Of a DNA stretch of 41,777 nt, positions 24,341 to 30,755 are shown in pieces. Source of the DNA: Actinomycetes bacterium. Lineage in GTDB: Bacteria > Actinomycetota > Acidimicrobiia > Acidimicrobiales > JABEUL01. The notes below the pieces were generated by a model that was given only the letters and a program-made list of their open reading frames with translations, ran no database searches and had not been told where the DNA came from. How positions within the stretch are numbered: the stretch's first letter is position 1; every line of letters begins with the position of its first letter. The stretch is from positions 1 through 41,777 of the forward strand of contig JAJYDO010000015.1 of the NCBI GenBank assembly GCA_021777355.1, written 5' to 3'. A program made the translations under genes and the position numbers.

Positions 24341-25377
24341 CAGTGACCCGCCGCGTGAGATGCAATGAAATCGGCGTAGAATATTCCAACTCCAAAAGAA
24401 CTGCATAAGGCAGAAAGGATCCAAAATCTTACTATCACTGTTGATTCCGGCCATCCCTTAAGCTCGAAATGATGATGAATTGGAGCCATTCGGAATACTC
24501 TGCGTTTGAATAGGTGAAAACTTGCTACTTGGATCACCACGCTTAAAGTCTCAATGACAAATAGGCCTCCAATAATTGGAAGTAGCAAAGCAATATTCAT
24601 TTGCAGGCATATGGCGGCTAAGCCGGCCCCAATAGCCAATGCCCCAGTATCACCCATAAAAATTTTTGCGGGTCCCGCATTCCACCACAAGAATCCTGTG
24701 CAAGCGCCGGCGAGAGCAAGCGAGACAACTGCCAGATCTAGAGCAGGAACCAGCCTGTAATCAGCGGGGTGCCTGAACTGCCAGTAAGCAAGAACTGCCA
24801 AACATACAAATGCAAACGATGAAGATCCGGCAGCAAGTCCATCCAGCCCGTCGGTAAAATTTACGGCATTTGAGGTTCCCACTATTACCAGCACTGCAAA
24901 AGCGGCCCATCCCCAGTGCCCTAAATTTATGCCCGGCAAATTGTATCTCGTGAAAGTGAGGTTTAAATTTACTCCTGCCCACTGTTCGGCCAAAAGGGCA
25001 AACAAAAGAGCAAGAGCTAGCTGAAGTCCAAATTTCGCTCGTTTATTCAGTCCCTGATTGTGCTTTCTGCGAAGTTTTAGCCAGTCGTCTAAAAAACCAA
25101 CAAGCCCGGCCCCCACAACTGCCAAAAGCACAAGCGGCGCCGCTCTTGTCCTGATTCCACGAATTACTATGTGCTCAACTACGAAAGCTATCACTGCAGC
25201 AAAAATTATTGCAATCCCGCCTAAAGTTGGCGTACCTGATTTTATGGCATGACCTTTGGGTCCCGCTTCCCTTACTTGATGCCCAAGGCTACGTCTTTCC
25301 ATAAATTTAATCAAAACCGGAGTTGAAAAAATTGCAAGGAAAAAAGAGAGGCCGCCTGCTATAGCCAATGAAATCAT
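24340..25377 (-). CDS. mraY: Phospho-N-acetylmuramoyl-pentapeptide transferase
   Basis: GTPTLGGIAII, FLDDWLKLRRKHNQGL, NAVNFTDGLDGLA, FMGDTGALAIG, MAPIHHHFELKGW. Confidence 0.98.
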   Translation of the reverse strand: MISLAIAGGLSFFLAIFSTPVLIKFMERRSLGHQVREAGPKGHAIKSGTPTLGGIAIIFAAVIAFVVEHIVIRGIRTRAAPLVLLAVVGAGLVGFLDDWLKLRRKHNQGLNKRAKFGLQLALALLFALLAEQWAGVNLNLTFTRYNLPGINLGHWGWAAFAVLVIVGTSNAVNFTDGLDGLAAGSSSFAFVCLAVLAYWQFRHPADYRLVPALDLAVVSLALAGACTGFLWWNAGPAKIFMGDTGALAIGAGLAAICLQMNIALLLPIIGGLFVIETLSVVIQVASFHLFKRRVFRMAPIHHHFELKGWPESTVIVRFWILSALCSSFGVGIFYADFIASHAAGH

Positions 25378-26870
25378 GGCCCAACTTCTTTCTTATCCGC
25401 TATATTGCCAGATGAGCTATAGATGTACTTTCTGGCTATTTCGCGATCATCGAAATGATTTGTCGAGTCTTTAAATGTTTGGGTAGTTTCATGCCCTTTC
25501 CCGGCTACCACTACTACATCTCCCGGTCGGGCCATCTCAATAGCCCTTTTTATTGCCAACTCTCTGTCAAGTTCCACTGCAAGGAAGGTTTCCTCGTGAT
25601 CGATACCTTCGGTAATTTCATTTGCAATACTTTCCGGGTCCTCTGATCTCGGATTGTCTGATGTGACAATTACAACATCTGCCAATTCAGAAGCAACCGA
25701 TCCCATCATTGGGCGTTTCGATCGATCCCTATCGCCACCGCAGCCAAAAACCACTATTACTTCGCCTTCTGCACATGCCCTTGCCGATCTGAGCGAGGCC
25801 GAAAGCGCTGCAGGAGTGTGGGCAAAGTCAACAACAACAAGAGGTTTGCTCTTATCACTGCCGGTTACCAGTTCAAATCTCCCCGGCACTGGCCTAGCCA
25901 CCTGCAAGCCCTCTACTATATTGTCTTCACCAATGCCTAGGGAATCCGCGATTGCAGCTGCCATTAAAGCATTGTCGACTCCTACCGCTCCTCCCCACTG
26001 AAGCGTAATCTCATGCCCGCGCCACAGAAAATGTGCGCCGCCGCCTACAGACTTTATGTTCTCGGCCTCATCTCTTGAAACAGTTACCAGGAAAACTGAC
26101 CGGTCCTCCTTTATCATGTCTGCAAGCCTCTGGCCCCATCTGTCTCCTATATGCACCACTGCCGTCGTAGCCCGGCCCGGCTCGAATAGTGTCGCTTTTG
26201 CAGCAAAGTACTGCTCCATATCTATATGGAAATCTAAGTGATCCTGAGAAAGGTTGGTAAAGGCAACCACGTCGAAAGGAATCTCATCTACCCTATGTTG
26301 AGCCAAGGCATGTGACGACACTTCCATAGCTACAGCCCGATCTCCTCGGTCCCTGGCATTAGCCATTAGACGATGAAGTATGGGTGCCTCAGGTGTTGTC
26401 CTAGCTCCTCCAAGAGTACCTACTACCGATACTCCCCAACCATGTACCGACAAAATTGATCTTGCAAGATTAGTTACAGAGGTTTTGCCGTTAGTTCCAG
26501 TCACGCCAATTGTAATTAGATCTTTGGCAGGGTGTCCATAAAATAAGGAGGAAATTTTTGCGAGGCTCTTCCTGGATGCCTCATTGGAAATCAAAACGGG
26601 CACGTCTTCTCCCAAATTTAAGGCTCTCTCAGACACGATTGCAACCGCACCTTTTTGAGCTGCAGCCGATGCGAAGTCATGACCGTCAAAGTTTCGCCCA
26701 GTTAGGCAAACGTAAAGCATTTTGCCTAATACGTCGCGACTGTCGTAAGAAATGCCTTCAATGACCTGGTCTAGTTTTGGCTCTGATATTTCGGTTTCGG
26801 CCACCAAAAATGGAACTTCGGCAAGGATTTGCCTAAGTGACATAGAGTAGCTCTTTGCTTCCAAAGTCAT
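25374..26870 (-). CDS. murE: UDP-N-acetylmuramoyl-tripeptide synthetase, meso-DAP-adding type
   Basis: GVTGTNGKTSVTNL, EVSSHALAQHRV, NLSQDHLDFH, DNPRSEDP motif typical of DAP specificity, GKGHETTQ. Confidence 0.96.
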   Translation of the reverse strand: MTLEAKSYSMSLRQILAEVPFLVAETEISEPKLDQVIEGISYDSRDVLGKMLYVCLTGRNFDGHDFASAAAQKGAVAIVSERALNLGEDVPVLISNEASRKSLAKISSLFYGHPAKDLITIGVTGTNGKTSVTNLARSILSVHGWGVSVVGTLGGARTTPEAPILHRLMANARDRGDRAVAMEVSSHALAQHRVDEIPFDVVAFTNLSQDHLDFHIDMEQYFAAKATLFEPGRATTAVVHIGDRWGQRLADMIKEDRSVFLVTVSRDEAENIKSVGGGAHFLWRGHEITLQWGGAVGVDNALMAAAIADSLGIGEDNIVEGLQVARPVPGRFELVTGSDKSKPLVVVDFAHTPAALSASLRSARACAEGEVIVVFGCGGDRDRSKRPMMGSVASELADVVIVTSDNPRSEDPESIANEITEGIDHEETFLAVELDRELAIKRAIEMARPGDVVVVAGKGHETTQTFKDSTNHFDDREIARKYIYSSSGNIADKKEVGP

Positions 26871-28738
26871 GGCGCTCCCGGTGGAGCTATGTGGTAGAGA
26901 TGTAGTGCATACTGCATAATCTGAGAAAAAACCGGCCCGGCCTCACTCCCTCCATAGTATCCATTAGGGCTGTCAATTACGACAATAGCGCTTAGTGCAG
27001 GGTTTTGTGCCGGGGCAAAGCCTACAAAAGTTGCCATGAACTTTCCCGGAAGATAGCCCGGACCTTGCGGGTTCGGAATCTGAGCGGTACCTGTTTTCCC
27101 GGCTACCGTATAGTTTGGAACGGCGGCTAAAGGAGCAGTTCCATTTGGACCAACTACTCCTTGGAGCATTCCTATAAGTTGCGAATCAACAGAAGGCGTG
27201 ATGACTCTGTGGCTTCCATGTATTGGCAAAGAAGTGACATTCCCACTTCCGTCGACGGTCCCGGCCACTATGCTGGGTGGCACAAACATGCCACCGTTTG
27301 CAATTGTGTTGTATGCATCTAGGACCTGAAGCGGAGTCACTGCAATGTCTTGGCCAATTGGCATTGAACCAATTGCTGTACCGGACCATAAGTTTAAAGG
27401 TTTGAGGAGTCCGCCTGACTCTCCGGCAAAACCGAGGTGCGTATTTTGGTCAAAACCAAATTTAAGAAGGTAATTATACAGTTTGGGAGCCCCAATTTTC
27501 TGAGCGGTTTCTATTGTGCCAATATTTGAAGACTGAGCAAGAACTTGACTCGCCGTTAAAGTCTCGTCGCCATGGGCTTCTGCGTCATGGAAGACACTTC
27601 CATCAATTAAGAGTTGAGAAGGAACATTAATTAATGTTGAAGGTGTGATTACACCCTCATTGAGGGCCGCGGAGAAAGTAGCAATTTTCATTACGGAACC
27701 TGGCTCGTAAGTAAATGTCACCGCCATTGGATTTGTCGAGTCAATTACCTCGCCCATAGTGTTTTTTGCTAAAGGAGTTATTTGTGAATTAGCTGGAAGA
27801 GTGGGGACCGTGACCACACTAACCATTGCCAATATTTGGCCGGTGTGCGTATCCATCACTATGGCGGTGCCGTTTAACGAATCGGTTGCCCCGACTTGCC
27901 TTGCCAAATCTTGTTCAACTTGAAATTGAAGCGACTGGTCTATTGACAGTACCAACCCTTTGCCTTGGACGGGCGGTTTTATTATGTGAATTCCACCCGG
28001 GAGAACCCCTCCGGGTGATTGGTCTTCTTGCTCGCTTCCGTTTTGGCCGCTTAACAAAGAGTTCCAAATACTTTCAACACCTGAAATTGGGCTTCCTGCG
28101 CCAGTCATTACTCCAACTATGGACTCGGTTAAAATCCCATCCGGATCAACTCGAGAAGACGAATCCTGTACGGTTATCCCGCTAATTCCAAGGGCTAGGA
28201 CTTTGGTAGCTTCTGCGTCGGAAACATTTTTGGCAACATAGGCAAATCCGGTTTTGACAGATAAAGTTGAAGCGATAGTGGCCTCTGGTATTCCAAGTAT
28301 CGGCGAAAGCTTCGATGCAACTGCTTGAGGACTTGTGATTAGGAGATTGTCGGAAATAATATCTTTATTTGGAAGTGACATGGCTAACACATGACCATTG
28401 CGATCATAGATGTCACCTCTTAGGGCCGGGAGTGAGATAATCCTGTAGATTTCAGAGTTCCCGTATGCGGCGTATGCAGATGCACTAATGGCCTGCACGT
28501 AAAAAATCCGGCCGGCCAATGCTAAAATGCAGGCCGAAAGAATCAGCTTAAATGCCCTTAGCCTTCGAGGCTTGCTTCCTTTTTTTCCCTTTGCAACAAA
28601 GTCCTGGAATCCATCAACTAATCCAGACTGCCTGGATTTGTGGGTGGAATTGCCAGTTTTTCCATAGGCATTTGCAGCTGGGCGCGATTTATTCGCCGGC
28701 CTCTTAAAATTATTATTGATAAATTCATCTCTACTCAC
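26867..28738 (-). CDS. ftsI: Peptidoglycan D,D-transpeptidase (class B PBP, FtsI/PBP3)
   Basis: RGDIYDRNG, EPGSVMK (SxxK), SSN, KTGTAQ; single N-terminal TM helix; no PASTA domain. Confidence 0.96.
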   Translation of the reverse strand: MSRDEFINNNFKRPANKSRPAANAYGKTGNSTHKSRQSGLVDGFQDFVAKGKKGSKPRRLRAFKLILSACILALAGRIFYVQAISASAYAAYGNSEIYRIISLPALRGDIYDRNGHVLAMSLPNKDIISDNLLITSPQAVASKLSPILGIPEATIASTLSVKTGFAYVAKNVSDAEATKVLALGISGITVQDSSSRVDPDGILTESIVGVMTGAGSPISGVESIWNSLLSGQNGSEQEDQSPGGVLPGGIHIIKPPVQGKGLVLSIDQSLQFQVEQDLARQVGATDSLNGTAIVMDTHTGQILAMVSVVTVPTLPANSQITPLAKNTMGEVIDSTNPMAVTFTYEPGSVMKIATFSAALNEGVITPSTLINVPSQLLIDGSVFHDAEAHGDETLTASQVLAQSSNIGTIETAQKIGAPKLYNYLLKFGFDQNTHLGFAGESGGLLKPLNLWSGTAIGSMPIGQDIAVTPLQVLDAYNTIANGGMFVPPSIVAGTVDGSGNVTSLPIHGSHRVITPSVDSQLIGMLQGVVGPNGTAPLAAVPNYTVAGKTGTAQIPNPQGPGYLPGKFMATFVGFAPAQNPALSAIVVIDSPNGYYGGSEAGPVFSQIMQYALHLYHIAPPGAP

Positions 28739-29160
28739 TTGTTGGGCGAAGTGGTGGTAGAAGCGGATGCATTTGAATTTGCCGGATGTAAGTATGTGAC
28801 ATTGCTTGGCGTGGTCATTCCCAAATTGTTTTCGGCACTATTTACAATTCGACTCGGGGATTCGAGATTGGCAAGTTTTGAATCTAATTTTTGATGCTGA
28901 GCTTGTTCAGCGCTTAGTTGTGTGCTGAGTTTATCAAGCTGCAACTGACGTTCCGCTAAAACGCCTCTCGCTCCAATCGTTCCAAAGATCGCCGCTGCCG
29001 CCAAGAATCCGGCGAATACGAGAGTCCGTCGAACTCGTTTTCTCGCGGCTCGTCTAACAAGTTCAGTCTGCCTTACAACTCTAAGCGGCGGTGTCCTGGT
29101 TGGTTTTTGGCGAGCCGGTTCTCGCCTTTGCCTTACTTTGTCAGACTGAGTCATTGCCAT
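28735..29160 (-). CDS. ftsL: FtsL-like septum formation protein (single TM plus coiled coil)
   Basis: Position between mraW and ftsI; TM segment followed by LDKLSTQLSAEQAQHQKLDSKLANLESPSRI. Confidence 0.75.
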   Translation of the reverse strand: MAMTQSDKVRQRREPARQKPTRTPPLRVVRQTELVRRAARKRVRRTLVFAGFLAAAAIFGTIGARGVLAERQLQLDKLSTQLSAEQAQHQKLDSKLANLESPSRIVNSAENNLGMTTPSNVTYLHPANSNASASTTTSPNK

Positions 29161-30154
29161 CGCTGGTCTCCTTTTTCCTAATTGCCCTTAGGCGACAGCT
29201 GGCAGATCGGTGATTTCTGTTAACTTCTTCAAGGCTTGGCCGCAATCCACGTCTGGGTGTAACATGTTCAAAATTTTTCACCGCACCGCACACGCATGGA
29301 AGATCCACAGGGCAAGTACAACCTCCAAAGCAAGCCTGGTCAAAAACTCTTTTGACCAATTGGTCTTCGCCGGAGTGATAAGTAAGTGCTGCAATTATTC
29401 CACCCGAATTAATGATTCCAATAGCAGCTTTAAGACCTTTTTCAAGCGAATATATTTCAGAGTTCACTTCCATCCTGATAGCCTGAAATGTCCGAGTTGC
29501 AGGGTGTCCGCCGTGCCTCCTGGTCGCGGCAGGAATGGCATTTTTTACAATTTCTGCAAGTTCCACTGTTGAACCAACTGGGCGAGCAGATACTATCGCA
29601 TTGGCAATACGGCGCGAGTATTTCTCGTCACCATAAGTTCGAATTATCTCTTCGAGTCGCTCTGCACTATAAGTGTTGATTATCTCGTAGGCACTCGCAT
29701 CTTTTGAAGTATCCATGCGCATATCAAGAGGGCCGTCATTTCTGTAGGAGAAACCTCGAAGCGGATTATCAAGCTGCATCGAACTTACGCCAAGATCCAT
29801 GAGAACTCCGCCAATTTGTCCGTTTAGTCCAAATGAAGCGACAATCTCGTCAAGTTCCACAAAGGAACCTAGAACAAGTTGATACCGATCTTTAAATTGG
29901 CTCACTATCCCTTCGGCAATTGCTAAAGCAGTTGCATCCCTGTCAATTCCAAGAACTTTTAACCCGCGTCGACCTGAAGTCTTCGCACTATCTAATAGTG
30001 CGAATGAGTGTCCGCCTGCGCCCAGTGTGGCGTCAACTATTACTCCGGTCTCGATTCGACTAAATAGGTCGACTACTTCTGCCAACATCACAGGTTGATG
30101 GGCAGCATTTTTTAGCGGTGTTGAATCGTAATTGAGTTTTTCTTTTCGGACCAT
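29141..30154 (-). CDS. rsmH: 16S rRNA (cytosine(1402)-N(4))-methyltransferase; probable start at ATG 30154
   Basis: HQPVMLAEVVDLF, VDATLGAGGHSFALL, GVLMDLGVSSMQLD, GFSYRNDGPLDMRMD, ALTYHSGEDQLVK. The ORF track extends to 30319 with no stop, so a longer form is possible. Confidence 0.93.
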   Translation of the reverse strand: MVRKEKLNYDSTPLKNAAHQPVMLAEVVDLFSRIETGVIVDATLGAGGHSFALLDSAKTSGRRGLKVLGIDRDATALAIAEGIVSQFKDRYQLVLGSFVELDEIVASFGLNGQIGGVLMDLGVSSMQLDNPLRGFSYRNDGPLDMRMDTSKDASAYEIINTYSAERLEEIIRTYGDEKYSRRIANAIVSARPVGSTVELAEIVKNAIPAATRRHGGHPATRTFQAIRMEVNSEIYSLEKGLKAAIGIINSGGIIAALTYHSGEDQLVKRVFDQACFGGCTCPVDLPCVCGAVKNFEHVTPRRGLRPSLEEVNRNHRSASCRLRAIRKKETSDGNDSV

Positions 30155-30253
30155 GCATAGCCCCTTGGCCAGCGAGCAAGGAAAGTTCCTCGACAAAGCG
30201 AGATGGAAGTGGGCGGGAGAGGAGGCTTCCATCAAAGCCAAGGGGCTATGCAT
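30153..30253 (-). promoter_or_regulatory. Candidate structured RNA element in the mraZ-rsmH spacer, closed by a perfect 17-bp inverted repeat
   Basis: ATGCATAGCCCCTTGGC (30153-30169) pairs 17/17 with GCCAAGGGGCTATGCAT (30237-30253). Inner hairpin GATGGAAG/CTTCCATC (30202-30209 / 30226-30233). In the mRNA the 3' arm holds AAGGGG and the first bases of the rsmH start codon. Confidence 0.7.
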
Positions 30254-30264
30254 AATACGACTAG

Positions 30265-30669
30265 TCATGACTCGTCCAAGGGCTGATCCTCCACGGAGGC
30301 CCAGCGAGTCGGGCTCCAAAATTCGATCCGATTCATGTTTCCGTTTACAATTACCTCACTTTCTAAACCGGCAAATTCCCGCAAGTAGCTGGGAATGGCT
30401 ATTCGTCCTTGAGCGTCAACTTTGACCTCCTGGACATTGGCAGCCCAAAACCTGGCCTTATTTCGATCGCTTTTTGACTCGCTATTACCCATTTCTCGAA
30501 ATTTGGCAGCTTGTTCGTTAAATTCATTGTCCGTCCACAGTGCCAAGCAGCCGTCTTCATGGTGCGAGATGTAACTTTCTGAGCGAAAAATGTCGCGAAA
30601 CTTCTTGGGAAGTATTACTCTTCCCTTCTCATCAAGCGAATGCTCAAATCTCCCAATAAACCAGTTCAA
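30265..30669 (-). CDS. mraZ: Transcriptional regulator MraZ
   Basis: FIGRFEHSLDEKGRVILPKKFRD and VDAQGRIAIPSYLREFAGL (two AbrB-like halves). Confidence 0.96.
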   Translation of the reverse strand: MNWFIGRFEHSLDEKGRVILPKKFRDIFRSESYISHHEDGCLALWTDNEFNEQAAKFREMGNSESKSDRNKARFWAANVQEVKVDAQGRIAIPSYLREFAGLESEVIVNGNMNRIEFWSPTRWASVEDQPLDES

Positions 30670-30710
30670 CGCTTAAGTCTCCCGATTTGGCCTATTAAGG
30701 CACCGAAATC

Positions 30711-30755
30711 TCCCTTTTCTGCCACAATCATCCACTTTACGCCCTTTTACCCCAC
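30711..30755 (-). promoter_or_regulatory. Five-unit MraZ-box-like direct repeat array with exact 10-bp period
   Basis: Minus strand: GTGGG-GTAAA-AGGGC-GTAAA-GTGGA-TGATT-GTGGC-AGAAA-AGGGA. Plus-strand unit starts 30711, 30721, 30731, 30741, 30751. Confidence 0.75.

Follow-up and report, generated by a model that had tools for sequence, protein, structure and literature searches.

Why rsmH, which encodes a ribosome-modifying enzyme, stands at the head of a cluster of division genes is an old puzzle. The locus described here raises the related question of what is done by the large inverted repeat that directly precedes rsmH. It was found in an Acidimicrobiia genome listed as Actinomycetes bacterium (GCA_021777355.1, contig JAJYDO010000015.1), and the window is the whole stretch of 41,777 nt that was analysed. 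The gap between mraZ and rsmH on the minus strand contains a perfect 17-bp inverted repeat around 67 nt, and an 8-bp hairpin lies within the enclosed sequence together with a third, weaker one. The 5′ arm of the repeat begins 11 nt past the mraZ stop codon. Downstream, rsmH, an ftsL-like gene, a penicillin-binding protein (PBP) gene and murE follow as consecutive ORFs. The coordinates of all features are given in Table 1.

Table 1. Genes and element parts at the mraZ-rsmH locus (positions in the window)
Feature	Position	Strand	Sequence or basis
mraZ	30265..30669	(-)	Pfam PF02381; stop codon 30267-30265
Full element	30145..30262	(-)	covariance model R1, 76.9 bits, E = 5e-16
P1 5′ arm	30237..30253	(-)	ATGCATAGCCCCTTGGC (as RNA AUGCAUAGCCCCUUGGC); weaker pairs extend the helix outward
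P2 hairpin	30202..30233	(-)	stem GATGGAAG (30233-30226) / CTTCCATC (30209-30202)
P2 loop	30225-30210	(-)	CCUCCUCUCCCGCCCA in the window; class consensus CCCUACUCCGCCC
P3, weaker third branch of the junction	30172..30199	(-)	fold and covariation; missing in some lineages, weak in the window's family
P1 3′ arm	30153..30169	(-)	GCCAAGGGGCTATGCAT (as RNA GCCAAGGGGCUAUGCAU)
Shine-Dalgarno-like AAGGGG of rsmH	30161..30166	(-)	paired within P1 (sequence and fold)
rsmH AUG at the conserved position	30152..30154	(-)	in frame; reads MVRKEKLNYDSTPLKNAAHQPVML
rsmH (mraW)	29141..30154	(-)	Pfam PF01795, 324.8 bits
ftsL-like gene	28735-29160		ORF overlap
PBP gene	26867-28738		ORF overlap
murE	25374-26870		ORF overlap

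The two arms of the 17-bp repeat pair to form P1, the outer helix of a three-way junction in the RNA. The fold of the RNA from 30140-30270 had an energy of -58.4 kcal/mol (z = -6.65), and 0 of 200 shuffled sequences folded as well. The A and U of the rsmH AUG lie within the 17-bp arm, and its G lies within the extended helix. The sequence-only reading had described the repeat with its inner hairpin and multi-branched fold, and had placed AAGGGG and the first bases of the AUG (30154) in the 3′ arm, where a branched RNA would hide the ribosome-binding site of rsmH. Both the sequence and the fold confirmed this description. An intrinsic terminator was also sought in the element, and just a weak match at chance level was obtained.

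How widely the element occurs was assessed by several searches. In a sister species, whose RsmH is 80% identical, the element is the same at 100 of 101 bases, and an identical run of 127 nt (30171-30297) contrasts with the flanking DNA, where identity is mostly 75-90% in each 100 bases. In other families, fragments of the element turned up directly upstream of rsmH when the class was searched at the DNA level, and most of the rsmH upstream regions followed a common plan of a long P1, the P2 hairpin GAUGGAAGGC-CCCUACUCCGCCC-GCUUCCCAUC, P3 and the return arm. The P3 hairpin of the relatives is centred on CGGGGAGAMAUCCCG, and the return arm often holds the start codon. A covariance model (R1) was built from the 19 sequences of alignment A1, made with MAFFT and without structure. 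R1 matched in 312 of 395 Acidimicrobiia genomes (the window at E = 7e-15), which is a lower bound: the filters were strict in both genome-wide searches, and R1 missed or barely found some divergent copies (L011, L082). Wherever the flank was checked, the element adjoined rsmH.

Across 84,980 named species genomes, a pattern search with the loop region matched 81 stretches. Most of these come from records labelled Acidimicrobiales or Acidimicrobiia, with Candidatus Microthrix among the matches; the few oddly named MAG records with the pattern (e.g., 'Bifidobacterium breve') are taken to be mislabelled. All 15 R1 matches in a phylum-wide sample of 297 genomes fell inside Acidimicrobiia, and the strict filters left no match in about 280 actinobacterial genomes outside the class. 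With the filters off, R1 was also run on 40 upstream regions of rsmH taken from other families of actinobacteria, where its best hit had E = 0.49. Judging from these genome comparisons, the element is an ancient, strongly conserved RNA of the class Acidimicrobiia. A small mobile palindromic insertion, which had also been considered for the repeat, was rejected, because the 101-bp element is present in a single copy in the genome assembly and represents one vertically kept locus across the class.

Covariation provided the strongest result of this work, and at the level of aligned sequences we would call it overwhelming. In alignment A3, which comprises 87 sense elements and was fitted to the structure, 91.5% of the cells were paired versus 35-49% with the partners slid by 1-3 columns. 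Each of the 46 pairs had undergone changes on both sides, and double changes filled 690 cells, compared with 182 in shuffles. The structure-independent alignment A1 contained double changes in 26 of the 37 predicted pairs. Within the window's own family (aligned with MAFFT), 97% of the P1 cells were paired, and double changes occurred in 10 of 19 P1 pairs, including those beside the AUG. Compensatory changes of the kind that mark a conserved structured RNA are present in the relatives and bear out the fold first read from the window. The pattern of substitution shows a three-way junction selected as RNA, in which P1 carries the ribosome-binding region, P2 carries a nearly invariant C-rich loop and P3 is optional.

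The P2 loop is CUCCGCCC, with each position 89-100% conserved in the 87 elements, although these values were computed with the loop anchored on itself, which favours conservation somewhat. The window's family has diverged from this loop sequence and reads CUCUCCCGCCCA, and two relatives in this family have CUCUCCCAACCA and CUCUCCAGCUCA, with CCGCCC lost. It should be noted that GGAG, the complement of the invariant loop CUCC, was found in 56 of 74 P3 segments (A3, between P2 and the P1 3′ arm) versus 16 expected. A kissing contact between the two is possible, and the invariant CUCC gives covariation nothing to read; moreover, 13 of the 87 elements lack a P3 segment and still keep the loop.

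The position of the start codon is less uniform. In 55 of the 87 elements, an ATG or GTG occupies the identical point of the P1 3′ arm, and for 37 of those 55 the codon is open and in frame with rsmH. The other 32 have neither codon at this point, which places their rsmH start at some other site close by. Start-codon burial, which holds in the window, is thus common without being universal. In elements such as L004, L020, L031 and L137, the P1 codon opens a short upstream frame of 6-19 aa, and the stop of this frame overlaps with the start of rsmH (ATGA or TGATG), which suggests leader-peptide coupling in those lineages.

We suggest, as the likely function, that the element serves rsmH as a structured mRNA leader acting in cis, which would repress initiation until a factor or an event involving the loop opens P1. 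Read from sequence and comparison, it is most likely a translational regulator of rsmH. With P1 formed, the Shine-Dalgarno sequence and the AUG would be paired, and initiation at rsmH would be low. The constancy of the P2 loop points to a trans-acting partner, either a protein or a ribosomal component, for which the loop would be the docking site; binding there would shift the balance between the closed and open leader. The most economical candidate for this factor would be RsmH itself, acting by feedback. No alternative helix freeing the Shine-Dalgarno sequence is obvious in the sequence, and so P1 should depend for its opening on a bound factor, on a helicase or nuclease (RNase), or on an upstream ribosome. 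As to the last of these, coupling to mraZ had been proposed from the proximity of its stop codon. In the window, a terminating ribosome would indeed come close enough to disturb the base of P1, but coupling does not hold as a general rule or common mechanism, because the distance between mraZ and the element varies too widely in the relatives. The leader might also act as a ligand-responsive switch, an alternative to coupling that the sequence-only reading had named; as a riboswitch, it would have to bind a small ligand directly.

The leader probably controls the amount of RsmH and perhaps also the division genes behind it. Altered initiation at rsmH could spread to the ftsL-like, PBP and murE genes by translational coupling, because these four reading frames overlap end to start. 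For the puzzle of rsmH at the head of the division cluster, a leader with a constant loop offers a concrete handle through whatever binds the loop. Counted against the leader model are the start codons outside the conserved point, the drift of the loop in the window's family and the lineages that have no element.

A regulatory RNA is already known at this position in other actinobacteria. The mraW RNA motif (Rfam RF01746) precedes mraW in Actinomycetales (Weinberg et al. 2010, PMC2864571), and the element could be its divergent homologue, with the same factor recognising both. We regard this kinship as possible, though on balance doubtful. Both RNAs occur in the same mraZ-rsmH gap before the same gene, both are presumed cis-regulators, and the true RF01746 members examined, which are long hairpins, likewise have a long outer helix and a C-rich loop, in their case the constant apical loop ACUUCCCC. 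Furthermore, R1 aligns this loop with the P2 loop in two mraW RNAs (L104 and L106) on the sense strand. However, the similarity of the loops has p = 0.16, and the bit scores of R1 on mraW RNAs (10-24) fall short of the 29 bits that an unrelated long hairpin reached in the same set. The location upstream of rsmH/mraW agrees with membership in RF01746, whereas the apical loop of the element (CCUCCUCUCCCGCCCA in the window, CCCUACUCCGCCC in the class) is not ACUUCCCC and bears only a partial likeness to it.

That the element might be a divergent mraW motif had been left open by the sequence-only reading, and the Rfam model did not bear it out. RF01746 (gathering threshold 50 bits) gave no match in the window and none at the leader up to E = 10, found nothing at the rsmH leader of the window genome or 16 relatives and was above the cut-off in 0 of 59 genomes, with the weak matches lying away from the rsmH leader. 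The two RNAs also differ in architecture and distribution: the element is a three-way junction with the loop CUCCGCCC, its outer helix reaches the Shine-Dalgarno sequence and the AUG in the window, whereas mraW RNAs stop well short of the start codon, and it belongs to Acidimicrobiia instead of Actinomycetales. The element was not recognised by Rfam 15 (including RF01746), and the literature search found no paper describing it. The RNA class is real and, as far as Rfam 15 and the literature searched show, previously uncatalogued. It also raises the possibility that the actinomycete mraW RNA is one member of a larger group of leaders that precede rsmH.

Some ribosomal-protein mRNAs, e.g., those of S15 and S8, have leaders that imitate rRNA. 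Like them, the element is a structured leader that lies close to a start codon, belongs to a gene for a ribosome-related protein and has a loop similar to an rRNA site; the gene here encodes an rRNA methyltransferase, however, and the resemblance is short and statistically marginal. A rather unlikely explanation of the leader is autogenous control of this type, in which RsmH would bind, and perhaps methylate, a P2 loop that copies the 16S target around C1402, shutting off its own mRNA. RsmH methylates C1402, and the regulated gene would be exactly the enzyme for this site. With E. coli 16S as a stand-in (the class's own 16S was masked with N or missing), the class loop ACUCCGCCCG agrees with positions 1396-1405 (ACACCGCCCG) at 9 of 10; nowhere else does 16S match so well, and neither does any stretch of 23S. 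On the other hand, composition-preserving shuffles gave p = 0.004 for this hand-chosen 10-mer and 0.02 to 0.16 for other segments, including those set by conservation, and the fully invariant loop U faces A1398 of 16S.

The window's own loop matches less well, and the two relatives in its family that have no CCGCCC also speak against mimicry. METTL15, the human relative of RsmH, binds RNA without sequence specificity in vitro (PMC10828496). Feedback by RsmH through a loop resembling C1402 would be attractive, but it is weakly supported and statistically marginal. We give slightly less credence again to the full scenario, in which the methyltransferase controls its own mRNA through a leader loop that imitates, and perhaps shares the methylation of, its 16S target, tuning RsmH and the coupled division genes to the supply of unmethylated small subunits. 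If true, such feedback would connect ribosome maturation directly with cell division.

MraW methylation of C1402 is reported to aid the translation of mRNAs with a conserved stem-loop (PMC13317604, 2026 preprint). By analogy with these cmpA-type mRNAs of B. subtilis, the structure at the start site might make translation of rsmH dependent on ribosomes methylated at C1402, giving positive feedback. A stable mRNA structure that hampers translation and a connection to MraW are common to both cases, and the rsmH start in the window sits in a very stable stem. In our case, however, the gene is rsmH itself, and the fold is a conserved multi-branch one with a constant loop. We find this dependence improbable, as it leaves the nearly invariant P2 loop and the starts outside P1 unexplained. 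An equally unlikely role is that of an RNase III processing site, which would separate mraZ from the rest of the operon and free the start codon. P1 would suit this enzyme, being a perfect 17-bp duplex in the window and longer in relatives, but loop conservation is again left unexplained.

Translation of RsmH might instead begin where an ATGA overlaps mraZ and add an N-terminal extension in frame, and the frame is indeed open in the window and in 33 of the 38 elements starting at the conserved point. Such an extension is highly improbable and was rejected as the source of conservation, as open frames are common at high G+C, in-frame stops occur inside 5 of the 38, and the paired changes keep the helix and not a peptide. 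Moreover, identical loop nucleotides are read in different frames by different species (VEDPYSARFH, GRPLLRPLP and WKAPTPPA), and therefore the loop is conserved as RNA and not as peptide.

Several minor observations concern the surroundings of rsmH. In two class members that have no element (L006 and L092), rsmH overlaps the mraZ stop directly, as if translational coupling had replaced the leader in these lineages. A genome from another family of the phylum (G429, locus L298) has, upstream of rsmH, a 16-bp stem (GCCGGCTGAGAG...CTCTCAGCCGGC) that encloses about 80 nt and does not carry the CUCCGCCC loop; this is possibly another, unrelated rsmH leader. In the window, three GGGAGA repeats flank the mraZ start on the minus strand (30714-30709, 30683-30678 and 30654-30649; window positions 30649-30714). 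Their spacing is 31 and 29 nt, they lie largely within stretches identical in the sister species, and they are possible candidates for MraZ-binding boxes.
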